Position numbers and translations under genes: made by a program. From a virus, in the IMG/VR virus record IMGVR_UViG_3300031787_000153, positions 1 to 55,396 of that record: a DNA stretch of 55,396 bases; one strand, given 5' to 3'. This document shows positions 27,097 through 43,997 of the stretch, in pieces. The notes beneath the pieces are model-generated. The model was given only the letters and a program-made list of their open reading frames with translations, searched no databases and had not been told where the DNA came from. Each line of letters begins with the position of its first letter. Within the stretch, counting starts at the first letter, position 1.

Positions 27097-27108
27097 AAAG
27101 GATTAACC

Positions 27109-28035: not shown

Positions 28036-28080
28036 TCCAATAAAATAGATATATATTAAAACTAATTTAGAGGAAATAAC

Positions 28081-29112: not shown

Positions 29113-29120
29113 CATAAATA
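29113..29120 (+). promoter_or_regulatory. Candidate T4-type late promoter (CATAAATA)
   Basis: A CATAAATA octamer lies in the 70-base gap between the virion genes and the next operon, 26 bases before the ATG at 29147. It differs from the T4 late consensus at the first base only. The gap is the longest in the plus-strand half and marks a functional boundary, which supports a transcription start for the downstream block. Confidence 0.45.
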
Positions 29121-29146: not shown

Positions 29147-29497
29147 ATGGAAGACGCACTTCAAAAAGCTTTAGGTTTTTCTACTTTTAGAAAAAATATA
29201 GAAGTTCAAAAAAAAACAATTAAAGATAAACTTCATGCTAACTTAACAATTGGCTATGATGGTGGAATATTTTATGTTGATAGACCATTAATAGTCTTTG
29301 TTGATTTTCTTATTAAAAATTCTAGAGTTGAAAATATTCCAATTTTAGATATTAACAATAATCCTATTAACATTAAAAATGTAAATGATTTTCAAAATAA
29401 AATTTTAGATGTTTATTTTGATAGTACAAATGAATACTTAATTGAATTTGATAAAATTAAATCAAAACGATCTCCGGATGATTTGTTAAAATTATGA
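29147..29497 (+). CDS. Conserved hypothetical phage protein
   Basis: The 116-residue product starts M-E-D-A-L-Q-K-A-L and has a helical N-terminus (Q-K-K-T-I-K-D-K-L) followed by G-G-I-F-Y-V-D-R-P-L-I-V-F-V-D-F-L and an N-x-P-I-x-I-x-x-V motif. I have seen this pattern in marine T4-like phages between fibre and later genes, without a known function. It overlaps the next gene by four bases (ATGA), so the two are co-translated. It has neither a membrane segment nor a signal peptide. Confidence 0.6.
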   Translation: MEDALQKALGFSTFRKNIEVQKKTIKDKLHANLTIGYDGGIFYVDRPLIVFVDFLIKNSRVENIPILDINNNPINIKNVNDFQNKILDVYFDSTNEYLIEFDKIKSKRSPDDLLKL

Positions 29498-30303
29498 ATC
29501 GCGGAATACTGATTTATGCACATAATAACGAAATTATAAATTATGTGGAACTTGCTAAAGTATCGGCAAAGTTAGCTAAAGAACAATTAAATTATCCTGT
29601 TAGTTTAATTTCTGATAGCGAATCTTTAAGTTCTGTAACTGATGTTACTATTTTTGATAAAATAATAACAATAGAAAAACCAGAGTTGTCTAATAAAAGA
29701 TCGTCTAATGGAAAAATTTCATCTTTTTTAAATTCTAATAGAAACACTGCATGGGATTTAACACCATACGATCATACATTAATTATTGATGCTGATTATT
29801 TTGTTTTTACTAATAAACTTAATGAATATTGGGATATTGATCAAAGTTTTTTAATTTCTCCTGGATCAAATTTTTTCTTAGAAAGCAATTCTGGATACCT
29901 TGACAAGTATGTTTCTTATCAAGGTATTCCAATGAAATGGGCAACTACTATAATGTTTAAAAAAAATAATGAATCAAAGTTATATTTTGATCTCGTTAAT
30001 ATTATTAGACAAGAATACCTTTATTTTAATTTATTATATAATTTCAATCCTCGTCTTTATAGAAATGATATAGCATTTAGTATTGCTGATCATATTCTTA
30101 ATGGACATTTAAGTGCATCGATATATTATCTGCCAACAATAAATTCAGTAGCAGTTAATTCAAAAATTTTACACATAGATAAAAATTTTGGTGTAAAGAT
30201 TTTATTTGATGTTGATAAAGACCCATATGTAATAGACATTAAAAATTCTGATGTTCATTTTATGAATAAAGAAGATTTAATAAAACACATTACCGTATTA
30301 TGA
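29494..30303 (+). CDS. GT-A-like glycosyltransferase-related protein (DxD motif)
   Basis: The 269-residue protein follows the layout of nucleotide-sugar-dependent GT-A enzymes: an N-terminal strand-loop (G-I-L-I-Y-A-H-N-N), an L-A-K-V-S-A helix, a second strand ending in I-S-D, and a hydrophobic strand with L-I-I-D-A-D-Y-F-V near residue 95, a typical Asp-x-Asp metal/sugar-nucleotide motif. A downstream I-P-M-K-W-A-T-T-I-M-F-K segment resembles acceptor-side strands. The next gene is a relative with the same layout. It overlaps its neighbours by four bases on both sides. Sugar and acceptor are unknown, and a non-catalytic role cannot be excluded. Confidence 0.6.
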   Translation: MNRGILIYAHNNEIINYVELAKVSAKLAKEQLNYPVSLISDSESLSSVTDVTIFDKIITIEKPELSNKRSSNGKISSFLNSNRNTAWDLTPYDHTLIIDADYFVFTNKLNEYWDIDQSFLISPGSNFFLESNSGYLDKYVSYQGIPMKWATTIMFKKNNESKLYFDLVNIIRQEYLYFNLLYNFNPRLYRNDIAFSIADHILNGHLSASIYYLPTINSVAVNSKILHIDKNFGVKILFDVDKDPYVIDIKNSDVHFMNKEDLIKHITVL

Positions 30304-31160
30304 AAACTTTTGGTTATTTAATTGTAGTATCAGAAAGCAATACTGCTAATTATCATCAATTAGCACATGCCTTAGCACTGTCTATTAAAAAAACTCAACC
30401 GCTTGGTTACGATAATATTGCTATAGCTACAGATAATAAAAATTGGATACCTATATTAAAAAATATTTGGGCATTTGATAAAGTAATTTTTTGGGATAAA
30501 GAAACTCACTGGGATGGAAGATCGTTTATGGACGAAATTACTCCCTGGGATCAAACTGTTTGTTTAGATGCAGATATGTTGTTTTTTTCCGACTATAGTC
30601 ATTGGATTGATAAAATTAGAGAAATTTCTTCTTTGTATATTCCAAATAAAGTATTAACTTTTAAGGGTGAATTTGCAACTGGTGATCATTATAGAAAATT
30701 ACAAAAAATTAATGATATTCCAATATTATATTCTGCATTCACTTATTTTGATAAAGATATTGAAATTAGTAAGGAATTTTTTAAACTGGTAAAAATTATA
30801 ACTAAATATCCTGTAGAGTTTAGAAATGTTCTTCTAGATAATGACAACGGAGCTATTTTAGGAACAGATGAAATTTTTGGGCTAGCAGCCAAACTGCTCG
30901 GTATAGCGGATAAAATTTCAATAGATTTACCTTTTCCTAGAATAGTGCATATGAAGTCTAGAATTCAAAATTGTATTAATTTAAGTGATGTTTGGACTAA
31001 AGAATTAAAATTTTCTTTTGATAGAAATGCAGAACTTAAAATTGGAAACTATGAACAGACTGATATAGTTCATTATGTTCAAAAAGAATTAATAACAATA
31101 GATGAAATTAACACGTATAAAAGAATAATTCGTAAGAGGATAAAAGATGGCAAACTTTAA
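30300..31160 (+). CDS. GT-A-like glycosyltransferase-related protein (DxD motif), paralogue
   Basis: The 286-residue product parallels the gene before it: an N-terminal strand (G-Y-L-I-V-V-S-E), Q-L-A-H-A-L-A-L-S-I-K-K, I-A-T-D-N, then W-D-G-R-S and T-P-W-D-Q-T-V-C-L-D-A-D-M-L-F-F near residue 93, giving a clear D-x-D motif. The later segment with G-T-D-E-I-F-G-L-A-A-K and a His in I-V-H-M-K-S could provide the second metal or acceptor site, as in GT8-type folds. The start overlaps the previous stop (ATGA). The two genes look like an old duplication. Specific substrate unknown. Confidence 0.65.
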   Translation: MKTFGYLIVVSESNTANYHQLAHALALSIKKTQPLGYDNIAIATDNKNWIPILKNIWAFDKVIFWDKETHWDGRSFMDEITPWDQTVCLDADMLFFSDYSHWIDKIREISSLYIPNKVLTFKGEFATGDHYRKLQKINDIPILYSAFTYFDKDIEISKEFFKLVKIITKYPVEFRNVLLDNDNGAILGTDEIFGLAAKLLGIADKISIDLPFPRIVHMKSRIQNCINLSDVWTKELKFSFDRNAELKIGNYEQTDIVHYVQKELITIDEINTYKRIIRKRIKDGKL

Positions 31161-31779
31161 AGAAAAATTTGAAAATTTTATAGAAAGTGCAAAACCAATT
31201 TGGCATGTTGCTTATTACCAGGCAAACTTTAAACTTTGTGGCTTATGGCCTAAAGATCCAAGGATAGAATATCCAGAAGATTTAATTCCAGCTTCAAAAG
31301 TAATTCCGGTTTCTGAAGATCAATTAAATTTAATAGAGGAGCTTTTTGCTCAAGGAATATACAATTATAGAATTAATAAAACTACATTTAAGATAGAACC
31401 AATTCCACTAGATACCGAAAATGATGGGTTTGGAGATTTTGTAAGAATAGAATTTGATAACGATATAAATGAATCATTCTTAGATGCAAGAATATCTATT
31501 TTATTAGAGAAAAAAGTTTTCAAAGTTGCATTAATTACTGATGGTGCTAAAAATTATGTTAAATCATTAATTTCTAATCCAGATGATGAAGTTCGAATTC
31601 GTTTTTACATTACAAAATATAATAATCCTAATGAATTAATAAGTCCAATAGTAGTTTCGGCCAATACGTTAGTTAATAACAATGAGGTTGAAGTAGAATT
31701 TGATGGTTCAACTTTACCAGAAGATATTAGCATTTATTATATTAAAATTTTTGATAAAGTAAACTTTGAAGTAAAATAA
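31147..31779 (+). CDS. Hypothetical protein
   Basis: I do not recognise this 210-residue protein. It starts M-A-N-F-K-E-K-F-E-N-F-I with AGAGGA before it and overlaps the end of the upstream GT-like gene by 14 bases. The N-terminal part has I-W-H-V-A-Y-Y-Q-A-N-F-K and a Trp-Pro motif; the rest is mixed alpha/beta and acidic, with D-E-V-R-I-R-F-Y-I-T-K strands near the end that suggest a beta-sandwich. It has no membrane segment. Its place in the island suggests a shared role with the transferases, but nothing in the sequence shows an enzyme. Confidence 0.55.
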   Translation: MANFKEKFENFIESAKPIWHVAYYQANFKLCGLWPKDPRIEYPEDLIPASKVIPVSEDQLNLIEELFAQGIYNYRINKTTFKIEPIPLDTENDGFGDFVRIEFDNDINESFLDARISILLEKKVFKVALITDGAKNYVKSLISNPDDEVRIRFYITKYNNPNELISPIVVSANTLVNNNEVEVEFDGSTLPEDISIYYIKIFDKVNFEVK

Positions 31780-31789
31780 GGATTTAATT

Positions 31790-32308
31790 ATGAGTGACAA
31801 TAAAGAACAAATCAAAGAGCGCACTGGTTGGATAATAACAGTATTAGCAGCACTATTAGCTATAACATCTTTATTAGACGGTGATAATTCTTCTCAAATT
31901 TTAAATAATACAATCGAATCAAATAACATTTGGTCTTTTTATCAAGCAAAATCTGTAAAACAATCGTTAGCTGAAATTGCATATGATGATGCTGTGTTTA
32001 GAAAAGAAACTAAAAAAGCAGAAAAATTAAAAGAAAAAATTGAAAGATATGAATCTGATCCTAAAACGGGGGAAGGTAAAAAAGAATTAATGACTAAAGC
32101 AAGAGCCATTGAAGCAGAAAGAGCAGTGGCAGAAAAAAGAAGCCCCTGGTATACATATGCTAACGCATTCTATCAAATTGCTATTGTTATTTTAGCAGCT
32201 TCTATGCTAACATTTAGTATACGTATGTATTGGATTGGAATATCTTTAGGGGGGTTTGCTACACTTTTAGCAACTCAAGGATTCCTTCTTTGGATTCCTT
32301 TACTCTAA
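31790..32308 (+). CDS. DUF4337-family membrane protein
   Basis: The 172-residue product fits DUF4337: a hydrophobic N-terminal helix (W-I-I-T-V-L-A-A-L-L-A-I near residues 14-30), the family motif N-N-I-W-S-F-Y-Q-A-K-S-V-K-Q, a charged coiled-coil of about 70 residues rich in Lys/Glu, and two C-terminal membrane helices (near 125-145 and 150-170). The function of the family is unknown; it occurs in bacteria and phages as a small inner-membrane protein. AAGGA precedes the ATG. Its presence among sugar genes would fit a membrane anchor for the machinery, though an unrelated role is equally possible. Confidence 0.75.
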   Translation: MSDNKEQIKERTGWIITVLAALLAITSLLDGDNSSQILNNTIESNNIWSFYQAKSVKQSLAEIAYDDAVFRKETKKAEKLKEKIERYESDPKTGEGKKELMTKARAIEAERAVAEKRSPWYTYANAFYQIAIVILAASMLTFSIRMYWIGISLGGFATLLATQGFLLWIPLL

Positions 32309-32324
32309 TTAAGATTGGGGTAAA

Positions 32325-33218
32325 ATGAAAGTAATTGAGTTTGATACCGTTTTTATCAGTTATGATGAACCAAATGCTGAAAAAAATTATGCAGATTTAT
32401 TAACAAAAGTACCTTGGGCTAAACGTGTACACGGAGTTAAAGGCAGCGATGCTGCGCATAAAGTTGCTGCAGATCAATCAGAAACAGACTGGTTAATCAC
32501 AGTCGACGCAGATAATATAGTAGATTCAACTTTTTTTGACATGGATTTAGATATGTCGAATGAAAAAATAAGAGTCTATGGTTGGTGTGGTGTAAATTCT
32601 GTTAACGGACTACGGTATGGTAACGGTGGTCTTAAAATCTGGCACAAAGATTTTATTCTTAATATGAAAACTCACGAAGCTGCGGACACACCACAAGCAC
32701 AGGTAGATTTTTGTTGGGAGGATGGATATAAAAATCATCCTCGTTCTTTTAGTCAAAGTGTTATTAATTGCACCCCATTTCAGGCATGGAGAGCAGGATT
32801 CCGCGAAGGAGTTAAAATGACTCTTAAAGATGGTGTTAAGGTTAAACCTACCGAAATCAAACAACAAATATGGTGGCATAATATACACCGTCTTAAGATA
32901 TGGAGTACAGTCGGAACTCATATTGAAAACGGAAAGTATGCTATTCTGGGTGCTCGTATGGGAACCTGGATGACTAATTGTACAAACTGGAACTATGTTG
33001 ATGTAAGAGATTTTGAAATCTTAAAAAATATCTATGAAGAAAATGTTAATCATGATAGTGTAGAACAAGATGCTCAAGATCTTGGAACAAAAATACATAG
33101 AGAGTTGGGTTTTGAATGGCCTTGGTTAAACGAAAAACAAAGTAAATTTACTGCTGATCTTTACAGAGAAACTTTTGATCTCTGTGCTACTTACTATTTC
33201 CCAACTAAAAATGTATGA
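32325..33218 (+). CDS. Phage glycosyltransferase-like protein with VDAD motif
   Basis: The 297-residue protein opens with V-F-I-S-Y-D-E-P-N-A-E-K-N-Y, then A-K-R-V-H-G-V-K-G and, near residue 61, I-T-V-D-A-D-N, a DxD motif in a GT-A-like Rossmann context. A later R-Y-G-N-G-G-L-K-I-W-H block and a Trp-rich C-terminal half are shared with the next gene. GGGG precedes the ATG. Codons in this gene and the next two look less AT-biased than those of the flanking genes, judged by eye. Similar proteins occur in marine myoviruses as unnamed or glycosyltransferase genes. No substrate can be assigned. Confidence 0.6.
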   Translation: MKVIEFDTVFISYDEPNAEKNYADLLTKVPWAKRVHGVKGSDAAHKVAADQSETDWLITVDADNIVDSTFFDMDLDMSNEKIRVYGWCGVNSVNGLRYGNGGLKIWHKDFILNMKTHEAADTPQAQVDFCWEDGYKNHPRSFSQSVINCTPFQAWRAGFREGVKMTLKDGVKVKPTEIKQQIWWHNIHRLKIWSTVGTHIENGKYAILGARMGTWMTNCTNWNYVDVRDFEILKNIYEENVNHDSVEQDAQDLGTKIHRELGFEWPWLNEKQSKFTADLYRETFDLCATYYFPTKNV

Positions 33219-34254
33219 TTTATTTTTTATAGATCAAAGAACTCCCTCCTCTGATCAAAGATGGCAGCAATTAAAAAATAAATTTCCCCACGCACAAAAA
33301 CGTGCAACTGTACAAGAAGCATTATCACATACCTTTACAAAATTTGCATGGATAGTTGATGACGATTGTGTCATTGATTACGATTTCAGTTATGTAGTTC
33401 CAGAGTGGGATAAAGAATACATACACAGATTTTTACAAGATAACAAAACATATCTAGGTGTTTATCTCATTCCTAGAGGGACTCAAATAACCAATAGGGA
33501 ATGGCAATATCAATTTTTTACAGGAAAAATTAAAGACATTGACATTAATCTAACATATTCGATTCCGTCTGATGTTGTGTTTATAAGTTACAACGAATCA
33601 TTTGCAGACAAAAATTATAATAGTCTTTTACAATTATACCCTAATGCTAAAAGAATACACGGAATTAAAGGTATACACCAAGCACACATAGCAGCAGCAA
33701 AGATATCTACAACTCCTATGTTTTGGGTAGTCGATGCAGATGCAGAGTTAATTGAAGATTTTAAACTAAACTACTATGTTCCTAAGCATGATAGAGATGT
33801 TGTACATGTATGGCGTAGTCGTAATCCAATTAACGATTTAGAGTACGGGTATGGTGGTGTTAAATTATTACCTACCAAATTAACCTTAGAAGTTGATGTT
33901 AACAGTCCAGATATGACAACTAGTATTAGCAAGAAGTTTAAAGCTATGGATCAGGTCAGTAACATTACCGCCTTTAACACAGATTCATATAGCACATGGC
34001 GTTCAGCATTTAGAGAATGTGTCAAGTTGGCCAGTAAAAAGCTTCATGGACAGATAAGTAAAGAATCAGAAGAACGTTTAGACATATGGTGTACTAAAGG
34101 CGAGGATAAACCTTTTGGAGAATATGCCTTAGATGGTGCAACTATTGGAAAATGGTTTGGTTTAAAATGGCAAAATGCACCCAGCGAGTTAGCAAAGATA
34201 AACGACTATGATTGGTTAAAGGAACATTTTAATGCAAGATATAACAAGGATTAA
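33211..34254 (+). CDS. Glycosyltransferase-like protein with two tandem half-domains
   Basis: The ATG overlapping the previous stop (ATGTATGA) is chosen over an upstream TTG, giving 347 residues. The N-terminal third (F-F-I-D-Q-R, H-A-Q-K-R, A-W-I-V-D-D-D-C) and the middle (V-F-I-S-Y-N-E-S, N-A-K-R-I-H-G-I-K-G, W-V-V-D-A-D-A-E) follow the same plan, so the protein appears to hold an internal duplication of the VFISY...DxD unit. The second copy and the following E-Y-G-Y-G-G-V-K-L-L-P block match the preceding gene. The first copy is more diverged and may be regulatory. An A-F-N-T-D-S-Y-S-T-W-R-S-A-F-R-E-C segment is typical of this family in marine phages. Confidence 0.6.
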   Translation: MYDLFFIDQRTPSSDQRWQQLKNKFPHAQKRATVQEALSHTFTKFAWIVDDDCVIDYDFSYVVPEWDKEYIHRFLQDNKTYLGVYLIPRGTQITNREWQYQFFTGKIKDIDINLTYSIPSDVVFISYNESFADKNYNSLLQLYPNAKRIHGIKGIHQAHIAAAKISTTPMFWVVDADAELIEDFKLNYYVPKHDRDVVHVWRSRNPINDLEYGYGGVKLLPTKLTLEVDVNSPDMTTSISKKFKAMDQVSNITAFNTDSYSTWRSAFRECVKLASKKLHGQISKESEERLDIWCTKGEDKPFGEYALDGATIGKWFGLKWQNAPSELAKINDYDWLKEHFNARYNKD

Positions 34255-35593
34255 AAAATTCATTCCTATAATGAATGAAATCAGTCCTACTTTTTGTCTT
34301 GCAAAATGGCATCATACTACAATATATCTACAAACAGGTGAAACACACAGTTGTTATCATCCTCCACCACATACAATACCTTTAAAAGAAATAGCGTTAA
34401 ATCCAAACGCATTACATAACACTCAACAAAAATTATCAGAACGTGCTGCCATGATAGATGGTGAAAAACCCAGTGGCTGTAATTATTGTTGGAATATCGA
34501 AACATTGGGCGAAGATTATATAAGTGATAGAAAAGAACGTAATGCCAGCATCTATACAGATGAAAGATTTGCGGCAATCAAATCTAATCCTTTAAAACCA
34601 GTTAATCCGCAATATATAGAAATTTCATTTGGAAATGAATGCAATTTTAAATGCGGATACTGCCATCCTAAACATAGCAGCAGTTATTATAAAGAAATTA
34701 AGGACTACGGTCCTTATACTACTGTAAAGAATCATCGCAATGATATCGATTGGTTTAGAATACACGAAGAAGAAACTAATCCTTATGTTGCTGCTTGGTG
34801 GGAATGGTGGCCGGAGGTGCGTAAGACATTAACAATACTTCGGATAACTGGCGGCGAACCATTACTACAACAGAGCACATGGAAATTATTAGAAGATTTA
34901 GAACAAAATCCACTGCCTAATTTAGAGTTAAACATTAATAGCAACTTTGGTGTTAAACCTATTTTAATTGATAGATTAGTTGAAAAGGTTAATAACCTAG
35001 TCAGCAACGGTAAAATTAAAGACTTTAAGATTTTTACCAGTGTCGACACCTGGGGTCCGCAGGCAGAATACATTCGCACCGGTCTAGATCTGTCTATTTG
35101 GGAGCGTAACTTAGACACATATCTAACTAAAACAAGTTTGCCTGTTACGTTTATGATAACATTTAATATCTTAACAGTAACTAATTTTCAAAGTTTGTTA
35201 AAAAAGATTTTAGAATGGCGTACAAAATATAATGGATACCAACAAAATAAATGGCAGCGTATTCGTTTTGATACCCCGTTCTTGAAAGAACCTTTGCAAT
35301 ATGATATGAATATATTACCAAAGGATCAATTCATGCCATTTATGCATAACCATTTAAATTTTATAAAAAATAATTTGGATGACAAAGATCGAACTAAATT
35401 TTCAGAATTGGAGTTTGAAAAGTTTAAGCGTGTTGTTCACTATATGGAAACAACAAATTATACTGAAGACAGAATTAAAGAAGGAAGAAAAGATTTTTTT
35501 AACTGGTTTAATGAATATGATAAACGTAGAGGAACAGATTTGATAGCTACCTTTCCTTTATTAGAAGAGTTTTATAATGAATGCAAGCAATAA
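34232..35593 (+). CDS. Twitch-type radical SAM protein
   Basis: The 453-residue protein has the radical SAM cluster motif C-x3-C-x2-C at residues 137, 141 and 144 (N-E-C-N-F-K-C-G-Y-C) and the G-G-E-P motif at 207-210, so it should bind a 4Fe-4S cluster and split S-adenosylmethionine. Upstream lie Cys41 (S-C-Y-H-P-P-P) and the pair Cys83/Cys86 (G-C-N-Y-C-W), which in twitch/SPASM relatives may bind an auxiliary cluster. This layout is that of the twitch-domain radical SAM family known from marine phages and bacteria. The substrate is unknown; sugar or peptide modification is inferred from neighbours. AAAGGA supports the start, though an ATG at 34271 (M-N-E-I-S-P-T-F-C) is an alternative. Confidence 0.8.
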   Translation: MQDITRIKKFIPIMNEISPTFCLAKWHHTTIYLQTGETHSCYHPPPHTIPLKEIALNPNALHNTQQKLSERAAMIDGEKPSGCNYCWNIETLGEDYISDRKERNASIYTDERFAAIKSNPLKPVNPQYIEISFGNECNFKCGYCHPKHSSSYYKEIKDYGPYTTVKNHRNDIDWFRIHEEETNPYVAAWWEWWPEVRKTLTILRITGGEPLLQQSTWKLLEDLEQNPLPNLELNINSNFGVKPILIDRLVEKVNNLVSNGKIKDFKIFTSVDTWGPQAEYIRTGLDLSIWERNLDTYLTKTSLPVTFMITFNILTVTNFQSLLKKILEWRTKYNGYQQNKWQRIRFDTPFLKEPLQYDMNILPKDQFMPFMHNHLNFIKNNLDDKDRTKFSELEFEKFKRVVHYMETTNYTEDRIKEGRKDFFNWFNEYDKRRGTDLIATFPLLEEFYNECKQ

Positions 35594-36887: not shown

Positions 36888-36897
36888 AGGACTTAAA

Positions 36898-37863
36898 ATG
36901 AAAAGAATTTTAGTTTGCGGCGCCGGGGGATTTATTGGCGGCCATTTAGTATCTGCTCTTAAAAAACAAGGCCATTATGTAATTGGTGTAGATTTAAAAT
37001 ATCATCAATTTAGAGAAACAGAAGCAGATGAGTTTTATATTAGAGATTTGCGAGATACAAGAAATGTAGAAAATTTAATTACTGAAAATCTCGATGAAAT
37101 TTATCAACTGGCTGCAGATATGGGAGGAACAGGCTATATTGCAATTGGTGAGCACGACTCTGATATAATGCACAACTCTGCAATGATTAATCTTAATATT
37201 ATTCATGAAGCTTCTAAAAAAGGTATCAAAAAAATACTTTATACAAGTAGTGCATGTGTTTATCCAGAATTTAATCAAGAGGATCCCGATAATCCTATAT
37301 GTGAAGAGCATACTGCATATCCGGCCCAACCAGATACAGAATATGGTTGGGAAAAACTGTTCAGTGAAAGACTTTATTTGGCACATAGAAAAAATTACAA
37401 CATTGATGCAAAAGTAGTTAGGTTACATAATGTTTATGGACCATACGGTGCGTGGAATGATGGAAGAGAAAAAGCCCCTGCAGCATTGTCTCGTAAAGTT
37501 GCAATGTCAACCAACGGCATAGTTGATATTTGGGGTCCTGGAAATCAAACAAGGACATTTTTATATATTGACGAATGCATTACGGGATTATTGAAAATAA
37601 TGGAAAGCAATATTAATATTCCAATTAATTTAGGAAGCGAAAGAATGATTTCTATTAATGATCTTGCACTATTAATTGCCAAGATTGCTAAAAAAGAAAT
37701 TGTAATTAACAATATTGAAGGTCCAATAGGTGTTATGGGACGATCAAGCCATAACGATTTAATTGAAAAATTTTTAGAATGGAGACCGAGCGAGGATCTC
37801 GAATATGGGTTGATCCATACATATAAATGGATTGAGGAACAAGTAAATGCCAATATACAGTAA
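36898..37863 (+). CDS. NAD-dependent sugar epimerase, GDP-mannose 3,5-epimerase-like
   Basis: The 321-residue protein is an extended short-chain dehydrogenase. It has the NAD-binding G-A-G-G-F-I-G-G at residues 8-15, the A-A-D-M-G-G-T-G-Y-I loop characteristic of GDP-mannose 3,5-epimerases, S-S-A-C-V-Y-P near 117-123 with the active-site Ser/Cys pair, and the catalytic Y-G-W-E-K with Tyr149 and Lys153. In plants and some bacteria this enzyme turns GDP-D-mannose into GDP-L-galactose/GDP-L-gulose. The R-T-F-L-Y-I-D-E segment near 220 is typical of the family. It sits between GT10-like genes, which in the known family use GDP-sugars, so donor supply is plausible. AGAGGA precedes the start; the 3' end overlaps the next gene by 17 bases. 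Confidence 0.82.
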   Translation: MKRILVCGAGGFIGGHLVSALKKQGHYVIGVDLKYHQFRETEADEFYIRDLRDTRNVENLITENLDEIYQLAADMGGTGYIAIGEHDSDIMHNSAMINLNIIHEASKKGIKKILYTSSACVYPEFNQEDPDNPICEEHTAYPAQPDTEYGWEKLFSERLYLAHRKNYNIDAKVVRLHNVYGPYGAWNDGREKAPAALSRKVAMSTNGIVDIWGPGNQTRTFLYIDECITGLLKIMESNINIPINLGSERMISINDLALLIAKIAKKEIVINNIEGPIGVMGRSSHNDLIEKFLEWRPSEDLEYGLIHTYKWIEEQVNANIQ

Positions 37864-38992
37864 AACTGAAAAATTTCATCATATTAAATTTGATCATAAA
37901 AAATTTAATAATTTAAAAACATGGGTTCCTTCATCAGATGATGTATTTTATCATCACTTTTATGATGATCAACAACATGGTGTGAAATTTAAAGATTGCA
38001 TTGATGAAATACATTGGGAACATTTAAGAACGACACCGTCTGCAAAATTATTTCATGAAAATTGCGGAGAAACGTTTAATTATAATTTTTTAAACGAAGT
38101 AATCGAATTAATTAAAACAAGAAATATTAATCCAACACAAATTTATATTGCGCTAGCAGATGATGTTCATAAACAATTTTTAGAAAAAAAATTAATTGAA
38201 CAAAATATATCTGGGATCAATTTTACAACATTTAATTTTTTACTGAGTAAGGTAAATCTTGATACCTTAAATCTTGAATCAAAATCAAAATTTAGTGTTC
38301 TTAGTAGAAATTATAGAAATTGGCGTCTTTGGTTATATTGTGAATTAATAGAACGGGATTTAATAAAAGATTTTACATATTCTTTTTATAATATACATCC
38401 TTATGAAAAGACAGTTTTTACTATTTCTGATATGATGGAAGATTTAAAAAAATTAAAAATTCCTATTACTGATAAAATTTTAGAATGGTTATTTAAAGTA
38501 CCCCATAGAATTGATTCTACCGATAACGTTTATAATAAATGGGCAGATATTACCTATTCTACAGTTGCTTCTTCTGATTTTCACATTGCAATAGAAACAT
38601 TTTTTGATCCTTTTTTGAGCCATATGAATGGAAAATATATAAAAGGCGCTGCTCCTAGTTTTATAACTGAAAAAATTTATAAACCGATAGCATGTAAAAA
38701 ACCTTTTATTATATTTGGAACTCCGTACATTTTAGAAGATCTGAGATCCATGGGCTATGAAACTTTTGGTAAGTTTATTAATGAAGATTATGATAAAGAA
38801 GAAGATAATCAAACAAGATTAAAAATGATCGTTGATGAAGTAGAAAGAATAGTACATCTTCCAACATCTGAATATTATAATCTATTAAATAGTATTAAAG
38901 AAATATGTGAAAGAAATTATCAAAGATTAGAGCAACAAAAAGCAACTTCTTTTACTAATGCATCTTTTGATTTTATATATGAATATCTCTAA
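37847..38992 (+). CDS. GT10-like family protein, copy 2
   Basis: The 381-residue protein carries the same C-terminal core as its relatives: I-E-T-F-F at 249-253, then F-I-T-E-K-I-Y-K-P-I-A at 272-282, P-F-I-I-F-G-T-P, and G-Y-E-T-F-G-K-F...Y-D. A 17-residue insert between the two motifs is unique to this copy. The N-terminal half has no close match to copy 1. It overlaps the epimerase by 17 bases and touches the oxygenase start (TAATG), so all three are translationally linked. A transferase role is inferred, and the sugar is unknown. Confidence 0.58.
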   Translation: MPIYSKTEKFHHIKFDHKKFNNLKTWVPSSDDVFYHHFYDDQQHGVKFKDCIDEIHWEHLRTTPSAKLFHENCGETFNYNFLNEVIELIKTRNINPTQIYIALADDVHKQFLEKKLIEQNISGINFTTFNFLLSKVNLDTLNLESKSKFSVLSRNYRNWRLWLYCELIERDLIKDFTYSFYNIHPYEKTVFTISDMMEDLKKLKIPITDKILEWLFKVPHRIDSTDNVYNKWADITYSTVASSDFHIAIETFFDPFLSHMNGKYIKGAAPSFITEKIYKPIACKKPFIIFGTPYILEDLRSMGYETFGKFINEDYDKEEDNQTRLKMIVDEVERIVHLPTSEYYNLLNSIKEICERNYQRLEQQKATSFTNASFDFIYEYL

Positions 38993-39693
38993 TGGAAATT
39001 AACAGTTTTTTTAACAATTTAGAAAAATATTATGCTACTGAATCTTTATCAAATCAGTATAAGGTGTCCTCACCTATCAAACATATAATTGTTGATAATT
39101 TTTTTCCCGAAGAAATATACAAAAATCTATGTAATGATATAAGAAACTATCCTGCTGATAAATGGATTCATAAGAATCTTGGCAATACTTCCGGTCCGAG
39201 AAAAGAAACTCGAGATTTTACCGGTTCAGATATATTGCAGAATATAATGTTAAATTTAACAGGACATAATTTTATTTCATGGATGACAAAAATTACAGGA
39301 GTTGAAGGAATAATACCCGATCCTCATTATTTAGGAGCAGGCATAACATCAACTCCTCGCAATTCTCAATTGGGGTTGCATATTGATTTTAATTGGAATA
39401 ATTCATTAAAATTAAATCGAGCGTTCAATTTAATAATTTATTCAAATCCAGAATGGAAATCTGAATGGAACGGACAGTTAGAATTTTGGAATCGTTCTAA
39501 AACTGAAAAATTATTAACAGTTGAGCCAACACCCAATAGATTAATTTTTTGGGAATATGAGCAAGAGTTTTTTCATGGTTTTACAGAGCCGATACTTTGC
39601 CCCGAGGATATCGAAAGACAAAATTTAATGTCGATCTATTATCTGAGCAATTCAACACCTTTAGAGTCTCCCCACAAATCAGTATTTTATTAA
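38992..39693 (+). CDS. 2-oxoglutarate/Fe(II) oxygenase (prolyl-4-hydroxylase type)
   Basis: The 233-residue protein fits the Fe(II)/2-oxoglutarate oxygenase fold. The metal-binding triad is visible as H-x-D at residues 130 and 132 (L-H-I-D-F-N-W) and His195 (F-F-H-G-F-T-E-P), with Arg209 (E-R-Q-N-L-M) placed to bind 2-oxoglutarate. The N-terminus includes I-V-D-N-F-F-P-E-E-I-Y, typical of phage members. These enzymes hydroxylate proteins, nucleic acids or small molecules; here the surrounding sugar genes suggest a glycan or glycosylated protein target, but this is inference. The start overlaps the previous stop by one base, and seven bases separate it from the dehydrogenase gene. Confidence 0.8.
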   Translation: MEINSFFNNLEKYYATESLSNQYKVSSPIKHIIVDNFFPEEIYKNLCNDIRNYPADKWIHKNLGNTSGPRKETRDFTGSDILQNIMLNLTGHNFISWMTKITGVEGIIPDPHYLGAGITSTPRNSQLGLHIDFNWNNSLKLNRAFNLIIYSNPEWKSEWNGQLEFWNRSKTEKLLTVEPTPNRLIFWEYEQEFFHGFTEPILCPEDIERQNLMSIYYLSNSTPLESPHKSVFY

Positions 39694-39700
39694 AACTTTT

Positions 39701-40831
39701 ATGAATGTTGGTATCATCGGTGCAGGAAAATTAGGATTATCAATGGCTCTCGTTATCGAAAGAGCTGGTTTTAATGTTATTGTTTCTGACATAAATCAGT
39801 CCTATGTCGATAGTCTAAACGATAAAAAATTTTATTCAAATGAACCATTTGTAAATCAATACCTCATCGAATCAAAAAAATTATCAGCAACATCAGATAA
39901 CAAAGAATTAATTGATAAATCAGATATAATCTTTATTATTGTTTCGACACCTTCTTTAGATAACGGAAAATACGACGTAACATCTATTTTTAATATATTT
40001 TCTGAATTTAAAAAAGTAAATTTATTCAATAAGATTATTGTTATTACATCGACGGTTAATCCGGGTGATTGCGAAATTTTTAATAATATTTTAAAAGATA
40101 CTGGAGCATCATTGTTATACAATCCAGAATTTATTGCCCAAGGGTCGATCATACAAGATTTAAAAAAAGCTGATTTAGTATTAATCGGCGGAGAAGATAT
40201 TGATTCGATTAATAAATTAATAAAGGTATATAAATCTTTTCAAGAAGTTAATTCTGAAGTAAAAACAATGTCTTTCAGATCAGCAGAAATTACAAAGATT
40301 GCTATTAATTCGTTTTTAACTTTAAAAATAAGTTTTGCTAATTTGGTTGGTCAATATTTAATAAAAAACAAATTATTCTCTGAAATAGATATCGTGTTAT
40401 CAACAATTGGCACTGATCGACGCATAGGAAATGATTTTTTAAATTACGGATTTGGATTCGGAGGTCCATGTTTACCTAGAGATAATAGAGCATTTGGAAA
40501 TGCGTTAATGGATTCTGGAAATAGTTTTAATTTTGGAAAAATGATAGACGATTTTAATCTTGATCATTTAGAATTCTTAAAGCAGTATTATATAGAACAA
40601 AATATAAAACGTCTTCCTTTTTATTTTGAATATGTTTCATATAAAAAGGGAATTGATATTTTTGAAGAAAGTCATCAATTAAAATTGTGCGAAAAATTTT
40701 TAAAAGAAAATTATACAGTTTATGTCAAAGACACTGTATACCTCACTCCTGATATAAAATTATATTTGTCAAAATATAATAATTTAAAATTTATTAACAA
40801 TTTAATCGAACCAGTATTTAATATAACATGA
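39701..40831 (+). CDS. UDP-glucose/GDP-mannose dehydrogenase family protein
   Basis: The 376-residue protein has the full family plan: the N-terminal Rossmann G-I-I-G-A-G-K-L-G (residues 4-12), I-V-S-T-P-S then S-T-V-N-P-G-D, Y-N-P-E-F-I-A-Q-G-S, Lys199 and Asn203 in E-I-T-K-I-A-I-N-S-F, and the catalytic Cys257 in F-G-G-P-C-L-P-R-D. Such enzymes oxidise C6 of UDP-glucose, UDP-sugar amines or GDP-mannose to the uronic acid in two NAD-dependent steps. The C-terminal domain is short compared with the 400-450 residues usual in bacteria. Which nucleotide sugar it uses is not decided by these motifs; the epimerase upstream would favour a GDP-sugar. Confidence 0.85.
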   Translation: MNVGIIGAGKLGLSMALVIERAGFNVIVSDINQSYVDSLNDKKFYSNEPFVNQYLIESKKLSATSDNKELIDKSDIIFIIVSTPSLDNGKYDVTSIFNIFSEFKKVNLFNKIIVITSTVNPGDCEIFNNILKDTGASLLYNPEFIAQGSIIQDLKKADLVLIGGEDIDSINKLIKVYKSFQEVNSEVKTMSFRSAEITKIAINSFLTLKISFANLVGQYLIKNKLFSEIDIVLSTIGTDRRIGNDFLNYGFGFGGPCLPRDNRAFGNALMDSGNSFNFGKMIDDFNLDHLEFLKQYYIEQNIKRLPFYFEYVSYKKGIDIFEESHQLKLCEKFLKENYTVYVKDTVYLTPDIKLYLSKYNNLKFINNLIEPVFNIT

Positions 40832-41913
40832 TAAAAGCATATATTATTCAAAATTGTCATTCATTATTTCCTAGTACAGATGACGAATGGTTATTTTTAT
40901 CTAAATCAATTGAAGAAATAAACCCCGATAAAATTATTGTTCATAGCGTAACAGAAGTGGCGATAGAGGAATTATATGGAAATGCTTTTATACATTTGAA
41001 AGATTGGTGTATCAAAAATAATAAAATTATAAATGTTGTAACACCACATTTAGATAAATGGTTGCACCCTCATGTAAAATGTGAAACATCTTATGGTAAT
41101 ATTATTACTGCATTTCCATCATTTATTAACAACATGTCTTTTCCTGAAAAATACGATCAGGGAGTAGCGATTGTTCCTTATATGCGAGGTCCTAGAAATT
41201 TTAGATATTATTATAGTTGTTATAATGTGCGTGTTGCAGAACATAGAATTAAAATGGTTGATGCATTAGCTAAAGAGGGATGGATTGACAAGGGTATGGT
41301 AACTTTTACCAGAGCGAACGAAGTATTAAGAGATCATCATTGTAGATGGAGATATTATGATGGTAGAATACGAATGGATGAAGATCTATATTCAAAAGAT
41401 TCTACAGAACATTTTAGAAAACCCAAAAGTATAGAAAACTGTTTTGTTGATATTATTAACGAAACTTGGTTTGAAGAAGGTAGATTTCATTTAACTGAAA
41501 AGACATTAAGAAGTATTGCTTGGTTTAAACCTTTTTTAGTTCTTAGCTGCAAACATTTTTATAAAGATTATTTTTGTAAAAAATTTAATTTGAAATTATA
41601 TGATGAAATATTTGATTATAGTTTTGACGATTGCGATTTATTAGAAGATAGAATTTCCGGAATCATTGAAAATATTAGATCGATTATAAATTTATCAGAG
41701 CCAGAATTACAGAATTTGTATTTTAAACTTCTTCCTAAATTGATTCATAATAAATCTAAAATTATAGAAATTATGTATGATAAACAAAGAATAGTTCCAG
41801 AGGCATTAAAATTTATGTTAGAAGATAGACCTTTTAAATTATACGGAATGACCGACGATTATTTTTTCTTTTTTTTAAAAGATATGAAATGGACCCCAGC
41901 AAGGATTTACTAA
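40828..41913 (+). CDS. GT10-like family protein, copy 3
   Basis: The 361-residue protein shares the core E-T-W-F at 212-215 and H-L-T-E-K-T-L-R-S-I-A at 221-231 followed by P-F-L-V-L-S-C, with Leu and Arg-Ser replacing the Ile and Lys/Arg-Pro of the other copies. An N-terminal A-Y-I-I-Q-N-C-H-S and a middle R-G-P-R-N-F-R-Y-Y-Y-S-C-Y block are peculiar to it. It is the most diverged of the four. Its ATG overlaps the dehydrogenase stop (ATGA) and its stop abuts the methyltransferase ATG. The C-terminal third is strongly basic and AT-rich. Confidence 0.52.
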   Translation: MIKAYIIQNCHSLFPSTDDEWLFLSKSIEEINPDKIIVHSVTEVAIEELYGNAFIHLKDWCIKNNKIINVVTPHLDKWLHPHVKCETSYGNIITAFPSFINNMSFPEKYDQGVAIVPYMRGPRNFRYYYSCYNVRVAEHRIKMVDALAKEGWIDKGMVTFTRANEVLRDHHCRWRYYDGRIRMDEDLYSKDSTEHFRKPKSIENCFVDIINETWFEEGRFHLTEKTLRSIAWFKPFLVLSCKHFYKDYFCKKFNLKLYDEIFDYSFDDCDLLEDRISGIIENIRSIINLSEPELQNLYFKLLPKLIHNKSKIIEIMYDKQRIVPEALKFMLEDRPFKLYGMTDDYFFFFLKDMKWTPARIY

Positions 41914-42522
41914 ATGGCAAACTTTCATAAAAACTCGATTCCCTTCATTCTATATGCTGAATACGATCAGCATAAAGACATTATATTAGAAATCGGTAGC
42001 GAGAGGGGAGAAGGTTCTACTGAATTTTTTAATTTGCATTCGAAGAAATTTAACGTTCCTTTTTATAGTGTTGATATATCAGAATCTGCTAGAAATAATT
42101 TATCTCATTTAACAAATACTACCTTTGTGGTCAGCGACGGATCAAAATGGACCAAGGAAGTTTTACCAACTCTTAACAAAAAAATAAAAATTTTATATCT
42201 AGATAATTATGATTGGAATCATCGTCCAATGAAACCAGATGAAACTGGATTAAAAAATTTATATCGAGAAAAATTTAATTTAGAATGGACTAATCTTAAT
42301 TGTGTAGCAGAACATTTAAATCAAATGATAAATTGTTATCCTTATATGTCTGATAAGTCTATTATTATTTGCGATGATACACCGTTGCAAGAACATAGCG
42401 GAATTTATATAGGAAAATGCTCTGCTGTTGTGCCGTTCCTGGTCAGTCGTAATTACAGAATTGTTTATTCTCAAAATAATGGTGTGATACTAGCGAGGGG
42501 ATATGATACAGTGTTATTTTGA
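41914..42522 (+). CDS. Class I SAM-dependent methyltransferase-like protein
   Basis: The 202-residue product contains I-L-E-I-G-S-E-R-G-E-G-S near residues 24-35, the glycine-rich SAM loop, followed by F-Y-S-V-D-I-S (motif II acidic residue), V-V-S-D-G-S and I-L-Y-L-D-N-Y-D, then I-I-I-C-D-D-T-P near 150. This layout resembles the cephalosporin-hydroxylase/Methyltransf_24 group, which often methylates sugar hydroxyls in polysaccharide loci. No signal or membrane segment is seen. It starts right after the preceding stop, and its last 20 bases overlap the fourth GT10-like gene. A capping methylation of the glycan is plausible. Confidence 0.68.
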   Translation: MANFHKNSIPFILYAEYDQHKDIILEIGSERGEGSTEFFNLHSKKFNVPFYSVDISESARNNLSHLTNTTFVVSDGSKWTKEVLPTLNKKIKILYLDNYDWNHRPMKPDETGLKNLYREKFNLEWTNLNCVAEHLNQMINCYPYMSDKSIIICDDTPLQEHSGIYIGKCSAVVPFLVSRNYRIVYSQNNGVILARGYDTVLF

Positions 42523-43708
42523 TAATCAGAATGAAATAAATCTTTCTCATATAGATCAGGTAAAAAATGTCAGACCTTATGAATATTTTGTTAAAAGAAA
42601 TACACATCCTGAATTAGAATTTGTTTGTAGTAAAAATTATGATTATCCCGGAATATATTTTATTGAAGTTAGTAGACATTCTTATGATTGGTGTACAGAC
42701 GAACATCAAGATAGTTTTAAAATTTTAGATAATATTCCGATTCATGTGATAGAGGCTACAAAACAAAAAAAATTAAGAATCGTAATAATTTCTGTAGTTG
42801 AAGGAGATAGTTTTACATCAAAATATGATTGTTATAGATACCTGACAGAATCTTTTGATAAATTAGAATTACCTTCTAAGAGTGTACTAATCGTATCTGG
42901 AAATTTAAAAGCAAAAGAACAATACAATAAGTGGTGTCGGCAAAATAATCTAAAACCAACTTTAGAATTTATTGAAGGTATAGAATGGGTTGGAGAGGCT
43001 TGGAAAAAACAATATGATCCTATTTTTTATAAATCAATAAAGAATCGTGCTAAACTTTTTAATAGCTTAAACAGGGCGCACAGAAGTCATAGAACAGATC
43101 ATTTATATTTTTTAGCAAAAAATAATTTACTATCTCGAGGAATCGTTTCTGGTGGATCTTTTTTTGATACTAATTTAGAATCATTAAATCCTACATTTTT
43201 AGATGAATCATCGGAAACTTATAGTAAAACTTTAAAAACACAATATCCAATAGAAGCTGATGTTTCGACAGAAGAATTAAGAACAGCACATCTTGCTGGA
43301 AAAAGTAATTTATGTATTTTTGAAAATACATTCTTAACCGTTTCAACAGAAACTTTTTTTGAGGATCCGGGAATGTTTATAACAGAAAAAACATTTCGCC
43401 CAATTGCTATGGGACATCCATTTATTATACTTGGACAAGTTGGAATATTAAAAAAATTACAAAATTATGGATTTAGAACTGATTTCATAGATACAAGTTA
43501 TGACGATATTGCGGATCATAAAAAAAGATTCGCTAAATTTCACGAATCTTTTTTATCTTGGATAAATGATGATAAAGAAAAATATTATAACAAATGGTTG
43601 TCAATCGTTGAACATAATTTATACATTTATAAACAATTAGACTTTAGAAAACAATACCTTGATGAAATTGTATCTAGTACTAAAAAGTATTTTAAAGAAT
43701 TTTCTTAA
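42503..43708 (+). CDS. GT10-like family protein, copy 4
   Basis: The 401-residue protein has the family core S-T-E-T-F-F at 281-286 and F-I-T-E-K-T-F-R-P-I-A at 292-302, then P-F-I-I-L-G-Q-V-G and G-F-R-T-D-F...S-Y-D-D-I-x-D-H-x-K-R-F, closest to copy 1. The middle (K-S-V-L-I-V-S-G-N, R-A-K-L-F-N-S-L-N-R-A-H-R) resembles the C-F-N-R-R-Y-N-E-H-R strand of copy 1. It is the last gene on the plus strand; its final 17 bases overlap the end of a minus-strand gene. A glycosyltransferase role is inferred from the motif and context. Confidence 0.58.
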   Translation: MIQCYFDNQNEINLSHIDQVKNVRPYEYFVKRNTHPELEFVCSKNYDYPGIYFIEVSRHSYDWCTDEHQDSFKILDNIPIHVIEATKQKKLRIVIISVVEGDSFTSKYDCYRYLTESFDKLELPSKSVLIVSGNLKAKEQYNKWCRQNNLKPTLEFIEGIEWVGEAWKKQYDPIFYKSIKNRAKLFNSLNRAHRSHRTDHLYFLAKNNLLSRGIVSGGSFFDTNLESLNPTFLDESSETYSKTLKTQYPIEADVSTEELRTAHLAGKSNLCIFENTFLTVSTETFFEDPGMFITEKTFRPIAMGHPFIILGQVGILKKLQNYGFRTDFIDTSYDDIADHKKRFAKFHESFLSWINDDKEKYYNKWLSIVEHNLYIYKQLDFRKQYLDEIVSSTKKYFKEFS

Positions 43709-43997
43709 TTGATTTTTTAATATCTTTTTTTAATTTATCGATATCAATTTCAAAATCTACACCGGTGATGTCTTGTTGATATTCTTTAAATGTTTCTAAT
43801 AGTTTAGTAGATAATTCATCACTACCATGTTCAACTACTAACTCTTGTATATTGAGCTGCCATATCCTCCCATTATCAAATTTAATCTGCATAGATTTTG
43901 TATAATAGAGAGGCATGGTGCTCATATACATGTCCTCAAAAATTTCCGGCCATTCATTAACAACTTTTTCTGGCGGTCGAAAAAATTTTTTAGGCAT
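43692..43997 (-). CDS. Conserved hypothetical phage protein
   Basis: The 101-residue protein begins M-P-K-K-F-F-R-P-P-E-K-V-V-N-E-W-P-E-I-F-E-D-M-Y, a pattern I recognise from marine T4-like phages without known function. It has a short beta core (M-Q-I-K-F-D-N-G-R-I-W-Q-L-N-I) and a Lys-rich C-terminal helix. It overlaps the next upstream gene by eight bases and is the last gene of the minus-strand operon, ending inside the plus-strand GT10-like gene. Confidence 0.65.
   Translation of the reverse strand: MPKKFFRPPEKVVNEWPEIFEDMYMSTMPLYYTKSMQIKFDNGRIWQLNIQELVVEHGSDELSTKLLETFKEYQQDITGVDFEIDIDKLKKDIKKSIKKIL

Follow-up and report, generated by a model that had tools for sequence, protein, structure and literature searches.

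What does a dense row of sugar-related genes contribute to a T4-like phage when it lies directly beside the tail fibre genes? The window analysed here, the whole 55,396-nt stretch of IMG/VR record IMGVR_UViG_3300031787_000153, raises this question at positions 29494–43708, where its ORF list has 15 plus-strand ORFs in a row that overlap or are separated by gaps of at most 16 bases. The island is flanked on the left by fibre-like genes (25237–29076) and on the right by convergent minus-strand genes starting at 43692. A first-pass annotation had described about 15 overlapping genes adjoining fibre genes, and both statements hold; its list of enzyme classes is likewise borne out, except for the GT10 label that it gave to four proteins. 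Two further genes of the row, for a DUF4337 membrane protein (31790–32308) and a small protein (31147–31779), were absent from that annotation, as was the probable beginning of the transcription unit with its late-promoter motif.

Related loci were retrieved with the radical SAM and VDAD2 proteins of the window as queries, giving 156 loci from the best 80 of 336 and the best 80 of 562 relatives; because they served as queries, these two genes are over-represented in the sample. The 98 loci without both borders were left out, and removal of 23 near-copies from the 58 complete islands left 35. ORFs were called mechanically, with a minimum of 70 aa; for bacterial contigs the limit was 60 aa. The transcription unit of the window likely starts at 29147, with the late-promoter motif at 29113, and the features are as follows.

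29113..29120 (+): late-promoter motif CATAAATA, T4/cyanophage type, 34 bp upstream of the ATG at 29147
29147..29497 (+): 116-aa conserved protein, first gene of the unit; median pairwise identity 61%
29494..30303 (+): GTA1, GT8/glycogenin-like glycosyltransferase by joint GTA profile, core; 35/35 islands
30300..31160 (+): GTA2, GT8/glycogenin-like glycosyltransferase by joint GTA profile, core; 35/35 islands
31147..31779 (+): small protein in the c9 position, in a form present in 3/35 islands
31790..32308 (+): DUF4337 membrane protein (PF14235, 8.2e-31), accessory; two predicted membrane segments; 1/35 islands
32325..33218 (+): VDAD1, VDAD2 homologue, GT-A-like transferase with invariant D-x-D, core; 35/35 islands
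33175..34254 (+): VDAD2, transferase modelled with a GT-A fold (pLDDT 91.2), core; 34/35 islands by script
34232..35593 (+): twitch-domain radical SAM protein (NF033640, 320 bits), first gene of the variable part
35577..36887 (+): TEK1, glycosyltransferase-like protein modelled with a GT-B fold (pLDDT 92.5), cassette
36898..37863 (+): GDP-mannose 3,5-epimerase (PDB 2c59, E 1.8e-88), cassette
37847..38992 (+): TEK2, TEK1 relative by sequence comparison
38992..39693 (+): 2OG-Fe(II) oxygenase (PF13640, 2.3e-12), cassette
39701..40831 (+): nucleotide-sugar 6-dehydrogenase (TIGR03026, above cut-off), optional
40828..41913 (+): TEK3, TEK1 relative by sequence comparison
41914..42522 (+): methyltransferase-like protein (PF13578 below cut-off; phrog_24975, 1.7e-7), cassette
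42503..43708 (+): TEK4, TEK1 relative by sequence comparison
43692..43997 (-): convergent conserved gene, chosen as right border and by that choice in 35/35 islands

The first genes of the row include two pairs of predicted transferases. GTA1 and GTA2, previously called GT-A-like, have no Pfam match when taken singly; their joint profile (alignment A3) matches glycogenin (GT8) in the PDB over residues 9–109 with an E-value of 9.1e-8, in keeping with that description, and D92 is invariant in the alignment. VDAD1 and VDAD2, previously described as VDAD-motif transferase-like proteins, are 34% identical. VDAD1 has no Pfam hit, PF00535 on VDAD2 reaches 22.6, just under the cut-off of 23.3, and the VDAD profile has no match at E ≤ 1 among PDB sequences. 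Residues 128–334 of the VDAD2 model match GT-A enzyme folds with Z of about 9–11, and both aspartates of the D-x-D in the VDAD alignment (A2), D187 and D189, are invariant in 43 sequences. VDAD2 is read as a GT-A fold protein with a D-x-D, and VDAD1 is placed beside it by homology. Judged from homologues, the true start of VDAD2 is probably the ATG at 33211.

The 116-aa gene lies upstream of VDAD2 in 72 of 75 loci, a count to which the border choice was not applied and whose loci were not dereplicated; its presence, with that of the convergent right-border gene, in 35/35 islands follows from the use of both as borders. The c9 position is occupied by the c9 form in 32 of the 35 islands and by the form encoded at 31147 in the other three. 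When aligned, the latter is 12–24% identical to c9, so that the kinship suggested by the sequences is uncertain, and a c9/31147 profile has a single match among PDB sequences, at E 0.41.

The part of the row that follows VDAD2 holds most of the enzymes recognised in the first-pass annotation. The radical SAM assignment stands clearly, with 320 bits to the twitch family NF033640 against a curated cut-off of 170; a close homologue occurs in 21/35 islands, and among 86 loci, counted without dereplication, 83 have VDAD2 within 3 kb upstream of the radical SAM gene. The epimerase matches the plant enzyme of PDB entry 2c59 over residues 3–317 of 321, far ahead of the best PDB chain of another family (E 2.1e-24), and the two aligned proteins are identical in the stretches SSAC and GREKAPAA, which we take to carry the active-site cysteine and lysine of GDP-mannose 3,5-epimerase. 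In a 209-kb sister record, PF16363 (GDP-mannose dehydratase) matches only the epimerase and, partially, another SDR. The oxygenase is of the 2OG-Fe(II) type by its PF13640 match, and the UDP/GDP-sugar dehydrogenase of the earlier description is a nucleotide-sugar dehydrogenase by TIGR03026 (213.7 against a cut-off of 189.8 bits). The methyltransferase can be retained only as methyltransferase-like, since its PF13578 match is weak and below the cut-off and phrog_24975 is a family of unknown function.

The four proteins once labelled GT10-like are indeed related to one another (TEK2–4 resemble TEK1 with E-values of 4e-19, 3e-16 and 6e-12), as had been claimed. The GT10 label itself rested on a motif. 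A GT10 enzyme would be expected to combine a GT-B fold with a C-terminal E-K pair; E333 and K334 are invariant in 49 TEK sequences. A search of 11 related records with PF00852 (GT10) found nothing at E ≤ 10, its control being weak in that no control genome passed the cut-off. The four window proteins have no Pfam hit at E ≤ 0.01, and the TEK profile has two hits at E ≤ 1 among PDB sequences (best 0.016), neither of them a glycosyltransferase. GT10 membership was rejected on these sequence grounds, the PF00852 result being subject to its weak control. The TEK1 model has a GT-B fold and matches a glycosyltransferase of phage HY126 (Z 11.4), the H. pylori FucT (Z 11.1) and the T4 beta-glucosyltransferase (Z 10.4); FucT is tied with TarM, the HY126 enzyme and the T4 enzyme as a fold match.

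The T4 enzyme among these matches brings up the glycosylation of hypermodified phage DNA as a function, which we regard as highly improbable: PF00303, the thymidylate-synthase/hydroxymethylase family, is missing from nine of ten related records, possible fragments that include the 209-kb sister, and the island adjoins fibres and varies by cassette.

Comparison of the 35 islands shows the locus to be built in two layers: a core that stays the same and a cassette that is exchanged. The core consists of the 116-aa protein, the two GT8-like proteins, the small protein and the two VDAD proteins, and its transferases are found in 34–35 of the islands; the one VDAD2 gene not counted (in L283, a locus itself retrieved through a VDAD2 match) was missed because ORFs were called mechanically. 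The cassette type of the window, with GT-B-type transferases, GDP-mannose 3,5-epimerase, 2OG oxygenase and methyltransferase, occurs in 6/35 islands. The methyltransferase is present in all six islands with the epimerase and in none of the 29 without it (Fisher 6e-7), and the 2OG oxygenase likewise accompanies the epimerase in 6/6 (Fisher 1.7e-5), both tests ignoring phylogeny. As a guard, the island labels, assigned by a fixed rule order, were placed on a core tree built by a quick method: the epimerase islands require three changes, all forced by starred branches, which could reflect a single gain with two losses. One of the five labels on the tree, T_SGNH23, is clustered no more than expected by chance. 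The first-pass annotation had proposed co-occurrence across phage genomes as a check, and the genes are not scattered; the core, and the set of epimerase, oxygenase, methyltransferase and transferases, each occur together. The notion of one compact, indivisible operon has to be given up, as 15 of the 35 islands have the core without TEK, epimerase, other SDR, 2OG, dehydrogenase or methyltransferase genes (nine of these, the minimal islands, also being devoid of any radical SAM gene) and the dehydrogenase, absent from 4/6 epimerase islands, does not follow the epimerase. TEK genes are found in a further 14 islands without epimerase.

Six islands carry radical SAM genes and unknowns without TEK or the other sugar-enzyme families of the window, and relatives carry in their cassettes a member of the tryptophan-halogenase family (PF04820, 6.5e-84), radical SAM proteins of the B12-binding kind and a protein that matches GDSL weakly. 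Such cassettes would fit a peptide-modifying machinery in which the core and the radical SAM, oxygenase or halogenase enzymes act mainly on amino-acid side chains of a fibre protein, the sugar genes being one optional branch. The peptide S-glycosyltransferases SunS and ThuS are among the VDAD2 fold matches, and VDAD1–VDAD2 accompany a radical SAM gene in at least three Bdellovibrionia contigs (among the matches listed, 45 of 80 bacterial loci), contigs that have no blastp match to the sugar genes of the window. We nevertheless judge this reading unlikely, given four glycosyltransferase-like core proteins in every island and the dominance of sugar enzymes in the window cassette.

The time of expression bears on the likely target. 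A scan of the 120 bp before the 116-aa gene found NATAAATA, a late-promoter motif of the T4/cyanophage type named in PMC2984593, in 18 of 34 islands, without exception at -33 to -38, as against 65 of 7000 background windows; the motif also precedes 23 of 36 fibre genes. It was found upstream of none of the GTA1, GTA2 and VDAD1 genes (0/35 each) or VDAD2 genes (0/34), and the nine minimal islands are without it. Its occurrence before 5/40 TEK and 3/9 dehydrogenase genes indicates that cassettes may be equipped with separate promoters. On this pattern the island genes are probably switched on late, apparently as the first-pass annotation had held. Other signals in the window were close to expectation in shuffles (sigma-70, 111 against 102.6; terminators, 9 against 6.2) or, for TATAAATA alone, uninformative (one match against about 13 expected); it was the looser NATAAATA, judged by its distance from gene starts, that gave a signal.

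Our tentative first choice, to which we give a little less than an even chance, is a late, cytoplasmic, two-layer glycan machine acting on virion proteins; we infer fibre or capsid proteins as its target. A fibre- or adhesin-type protein encoded by the neighbouring late genes would receive a short priming glycan from the core transferases, and host GDP-mannose would be converted by the epimerase to GDP-L-galactose or GDP-L-gulose. To this primer the GT-B-type proteins, for which co-occurrence makes GDP-L-sugar transferases the preferred reading, would add further sugars, and the glycan would be tailored by the oxygenase, the methyltransferase and the radical SAM enzyme. The sugar in use is probably an L-sugar derived from GDP-mannose, and the earlier proposal of a modified sugar being built and attached agrees with the presence of predicted enzymes for both steps. 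Swapping of cassettes would alter the outer sugars among related phages, which could shift receptor choice, shield fibres or defeat blocking molecules.

A cytoplasmic site of action is consistent with the scarcity of membrane proteins: hydropathy predicts a membrane segment in six of the 408 ORFs of the 35 islands, only DUF4337 having two, and apart from that protein the island has no membrane export or lipid-carrier machinery. Membrane steps could come from host enzymes or other phage loci. Nucleotide-sugar enzymes are typical of O-antigen work, and the cassettes might instead follow host sugars, altering the LPS or capsule late in infection, for instance against re-adsorption to debris or co-infection. 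Another sugar cluster (L421) is present in the sister record, its SDR and transferase-like genes named by eye, and actinomycete relatives of VDAD adjoin genes whose Pfam matches are GT2-like or, below the cut-off, GT4-like. Pelagimyophage and jumbo-cyanophage clusters are interpreted as changers of outer polysaccharides in PMC7029224 and PMC7824862, the former also giving GT8 as typical of O-antigen work. Against a host-surface role, flippase-, polymerase- and acyltransferase-like membrane proteins are absent from the 35 islands (the islands being the scope of this count), the late-promoter motif is common to island and fibre genes, and a fibre gene is near 32 of the 35 loci with enough flank (not dereplicated). 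We consider such a role a serious rival, though less probable than action on the virion.

Cassette type was compared with nearby proteins by label permutations in which the tree was handled through core identity. Against a virion target, it does not clearly follow the adhesin-like protein next to it beyond core relatedness (partial r 0.08, p 0.08), tracks c9 weakly (0.10, p 0.047) and tracks VDAD2 (0.26, p 0.002); VDAD2 adjoins the cassette, and the tracking may reflect carriage in the same recombination. A more speculative extension, rather doubtful in our estimation, is a modular "glycan-writer" of phage tails, in which the late core primes the fibre or adhesin glycan and a single slot takes interchangeable cassettes (L-galactose/2OG/methyl; GDSL-type; radical SAM and B12-radical SAM; halogenase), diversifying tail chemistry without change of the fibre gene, much as bacteria swap O-antigen genes. 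If true, a group of uncultured T4-like phages would vary the sugar chemistry of its particles by exchange at one slot. Alongside mutation of the fibres, this would be a second way to use new receptors or gain protection, and the unexplained radical SAM and sugar genes beside the fibres of aquatic T4-like phages would have a testable reason. The Bdellovibrionia contigs suggest that a VDAD/radical SAM reaction may matter beyond phages.

Among known systems, mycobacteriophages Che8, Corndog and Myrna glycosylate their virions, with phage transferases acting on capsid and tail proteins (Freeman et al. 2023, as cited in PMC12363180), and Che8 gp110 is named there as a transferase for capsid glycosylation. 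The likeness lies in phage-encoded transferases and in a Che8 glycosyltransferase that is a fold match of VDAD2 (E 3.8e-4; we do not equate this entry with gp110); single transferases are described there, whereas the present locus, a candidate system, has a multi-gene exchangeable cassette. Cyanophage S-SCSM1 (PMC9602691) also has a GDP-mannose 3,5-epimerase among glycosyltransferases, to which that of the window is 53.8% identical (169 phage records match), but adds GDP-mannose 4,6-dehydratase and GDP-L-fucose synthase. For the window, an origin from a cyanophage was weighed and rejected, with no psbA-family gene in 10 related records and a baseplate gp6-like protein whose closest counterparts (33–36%) belong to jumbo phages (Phosso, SCTP-2, Atu_ph07 and 121Q, for example). 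Unlike the sugar clusters of the S-SCSM1 type, the window has TEK1, VDAD1 and VDAD2; a tblastn search of 50,697 phage records (from which records very near the window may be left out) gave no match to these or to the radical SAM protein, GTA1 or GTA2. By score the radical SAM protein belongs to the twitch family NF033640, here paired with VDAD transferases. The closest parallel is the host recognition cluster of pelagimyophages and cyanomyophages, in T4-like phages a hypervariable island beside the tail fibres with several glycosyltransferases, GT8 being the commonest, and radical SAM cassettes that vary among closely related phages (PMC7029224), its pelagimyophage form being characterised by a position between VrlC and the neck gene gp14 and by a SAR11 host. 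The general kind of system, proposed as undescribed in the first-pass annotation, is in print. The island is a variant within a known type, the variable island beside fibres that carries glycosyltransferase and radical SAM genes, and is distinguished from the cluster as described there by four core transferases that stay constant, with a late-promoter motif, and behind them a cassette slot with defined borders.

Judged from its sequence and that of its relatives, the glycan island is a real, well delimited entity, most likely late, linked to fibre genes and built in two layers. It comprises 15 plus-strand genes, from 29494 to 43708, in a 55,396-base virus record of IMG/VR, and convergent minus-strand genes lie beyond it. 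The plus strand of the window also encodes four mutually related fibre-like proteins and the following features:

Window, plus strand: gp25- and gp6-like baseplate genes, named by eye, the gp6-like one backed by sequence comparison
4273-17352, plus strand: a single ORF of 4,359 aa, between the gp6-like gene and the fibres
27109 and 28081, plus strand: two related adhesin-like proteins (the name is our reading), between the fibre-like genes and the island

The proteins nearest to the gp6-like one are those of jumbo phages such as 121Q and Atu_ph07, at 33-36%. The window has a longer sister record, a contig of 209,836 bases that each of six island proteins used as queries matches with 99-100% identity. 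This contig also carries what looks by eye like another sugar gene cluster (L421, G001:C1:163000-173000), with a cytidylyltransferase-like gene, several genes of transferase-like appearance, and SDR proteins similar to a sugar-nucleotide dehydratase and to an RmlD-like reductase.

The enzyme list of the first-pass annotation is borne out by library scans, PDB searches and structural models, except for the label "GT10" given to the four related TEK proteins, which have no GT10 match by sequence. Library scans place in the island a nucleotide-sugar dehydrogenase, a twitch radical SAM enzyme, a 2OG-Fe(II) oxygenase (2OG; PDB matches weak), a DUF4337 membrane protein and, by a weak match, a methyltransferase; the scans and PDB searches together identify a GDP-mannose 3,5-epimerase (E 1.8e-88). 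For the DUF4337 protein (31790-32308), the first 340 loci give near-identical copies only (14 ORFs, each with at least 90% identity). A joint profile of the two small GT-A-like proteins, GTA1 and GTA2, matches glycogenin. AlphaFold models of TEK1 and of VDAD2, one of two VDAD-motif proteins, were built from alignments of fetched relatives (pLDDT 92.5 and 91.2, respectively). The TEK1 model has a GT-B fold, with four matches lying within one Z unit (phage HY126 transferase, 11.4; TarM, 11.3; H. pylori fucosyltransferase, 11.1; T4 beta-glucosyltransferase, 10.4), and R227, E321, E333, K334, P344 and R382 are invariant in 49 TEK sequences. The VDAD2 model has a GT-A fold (B4GALNT1, Z 11.2; ThuS, 10.4; WrtF fucosyltransferase, 10.4), shared at 20% identity by two deposited uncultured-phage proteins. 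Across 43 aligned VDAD sequences, D187, D189 and E281 do not vary. Since nucleotidyltransferases such as IspD match this model about as well (Z 10.4), the fold alone is no proof of sugar transfer.

The radical SAM and VDAD2 queries (best 80 of 336 and best 80 of 562 relatives, respectively) yielded 156 loci, of which 58 hold both island borders and 35 remain after removal of near-copies. The core is fixed: GTA1, GTA2 and VDAD1 are each present in 35/35 islands and VDAD2 in 34/35, the sole island without a called VDAD2 (L283) nevertheless having a VDAD2 match in the locus search, while the small core protein c9 or the form encoded at 31147 occurs in all 35 (32 + 3). When the border requirement is dropped, VDAD1, GTA2, GTA1 and the 116-aa gene lie upstream of VDAD2 in 72/75 loci with enough flank, and a fibre gene is present in 32/35 such loci, neither set being dereplicated. 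The slot after VDAD2 varies in content among the 35 islands, with a radical SAM protein that is close to that of the window in 21 and distant in 9, TEK in 20, dehydrogenase in 9, 2OG in 8, other SDR in 7, epimerase and methyltransferase in 6 each, and DUF4337 in 1. None of TEK, epimerase, SDR, 2OG, dehydrogenase and methyltransferase occurs in 15/35, and in nine of these the slot is a minus-strand ThyX gene, alone (eight) or with one unknown gene (L289). By Fisher tests, which ignore phylogeny, the six epimerase islands all carry methyltransferase (6e-7) and 2OG (1.7e-5); TEK genes are always present too. The dehydrogenase is not tied to the epimerase in the 35 islands (2/6 with it vs 7/29 without, p 0.64).

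For the 26 islands that do not belong to the ThyX clade, pairwise identity has a median of 74% for VDAD1, 67% for GTA2, 56% for GTA1, 48% for VDAD2, 40% for c9, 39% for the adhesin and 46% for the fibre, the last resting on 89 pairs with a BLAST hit in which paralogues are possibly mixed; three of the four core transferases are thus better kept than the adjoining structural proteins. The median of 79% for the close radical SAM protein belongs to a class for which 50% identity to the window was itself the lower limit of membership.

Five cassette labels, placed on a tree built from the joined core proteins, require 11 changes, as against a minimum of 4 and 21.1 for shuffled labels. The ThyX-only islands are all separated from the others by one branch, the epimerase label needs three changes, all forced by starred branches (possibly one gain and two losses), and the T_SGNH23 label scatters like chance. 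The epimerase of the window is more similar to its counterpart in locus L050 (78%) than to the one in L009 (71%), but the core proteins are nearer L009 (GTA2, 72 vs 53%; VDAD2, 73 vs 46%), which fits module transfer and, as far as these sequences go, a movement of cassettes between related islands. Given core relatedness, VDAD2 co-varies with cassette type (partial r 0.26, p 0.002), which suggests that it is either matched to the cassette or transferred along with it. Cassettes elsewhere hold B12-binding and further radical SAM proteins, a GDSL hydrolase (weak match) and a tryptophan-halogenase family protein, the gene for which, in one island (L027:8512-10011), is flanked by VDAD2 and radical SAM.

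A search with the VDAD alignment against one genome each of 84,980 species gave 110 relatives, of which 80 were taken. Among the 45 of 80 loci listed, three Bdellovibrionia contigs (L344, 9980-13144; L345; L347) have VDAD1, VDAD2 and a radical SAM gene as consecutive genes, and the sugar genes of the window have no match in these contigs by blastp. Photorhabdus and actinomycetes have a lone VDAD gene amid glycosyltransferase-looking genes (by eye, partly Pfam). These bacterial contigs may contain prophage or contaminant DNA. In two Photorhabdus loci (L351 and L352, about 8700-16500), the VDAD gene, amid transferase-like genes named by eye, lies upstream of a HlyD-family export protein, a neighbourhood possibly concerned with a glycosylated secreted product.

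The motif NATAAATA, a reported late promoter of cyanomyovirus S-PM2 that is similar to TATAAATA of T4 (PMC2984593), is found in the 120 bp preceding the 116-aa gene in 18/34 islands, without exception at -33 to -38, and upstream of 23/36 fibre genes, against a background of 65/7000 random windows. It is absent upstream of the core genes (GTA1 0/35, GTA2 0/35, c9 0/32, VDAD1 0/35, VDAD2 0/34) and of radical SAM (0/42), epimerase and SDR (0/11), 2OG (0/9) and methyltransferase (0/6) genes; it precedes 5/40 TEK, 3/9 dehydrogenase and 4/41 adhesin genes and 43/282 unclassified ORFs. With upstream stretches read by eye, a looser TAAATA stands at the same place in 25/26 islands outside the ThyX clade and 0/9 inside. 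In the window the motif lies at 29113 and again, before fibre-like genes, at 25212 and 18173. Its placement before the 116-aa gene indicates that the island is most likely a late unit beginning at 29147, rather than at 29494 as annotated at first. The 116-aa protein, encoded by the leading gene of this unit (29147-29497), has the same length in each of the nine loci listed. The whole window holds a single TATAAATA, vs about 13 in shuffles, as if the sequence were avoided outside promoters.

The late motif and the fibre linkage would point to the virion as the target, and glycosylation of the virion is the most likely role of the island, a reading we hold tentatively. The main rival, less likely in our estimation, is that the island changes the host surface; a membrane segment is predicted from hydropathy in 6/408 ORFs of the 35 islands, and lipid-carrier and export steps are thus seemingly not encoded there. 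In 9/10 related records no gene of the thymidylate-synthase family was found, which speaks against glucosylation of DNA. Taken together, the few membrane ORFs and the missing thymidylate-synthase family suggest a cytoplasmic protein acceptor. Given core relatedness, cassette type shows almost no association with the neighbouring adhesin (partial r 0.08, p 0.08).

In a tblastn search of 50,697 phage records, from which those very near the window were possibly excluded, the radical SAM protein, VDAD1, VDAD2, GTA1, GTA2, TEK1 and the adhesin at 28081 had zero matches. No description of a constant set of core transferases followed by a slot for exchangeable cassettes was found in the literature searched, in which coverage of subscription papers is limited. 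Published material for comparison comprises the pelagimyophage HRC (host recognition cluster; PMC7029224), an environmental genome of T4-like type that has 12 radical SAM genes (PMC5332604), the sugar clusters of jumbo cyanophages (PMC7824862) and a cyanophage GDP-mannose 3,5-epimerase (PMC9602691).
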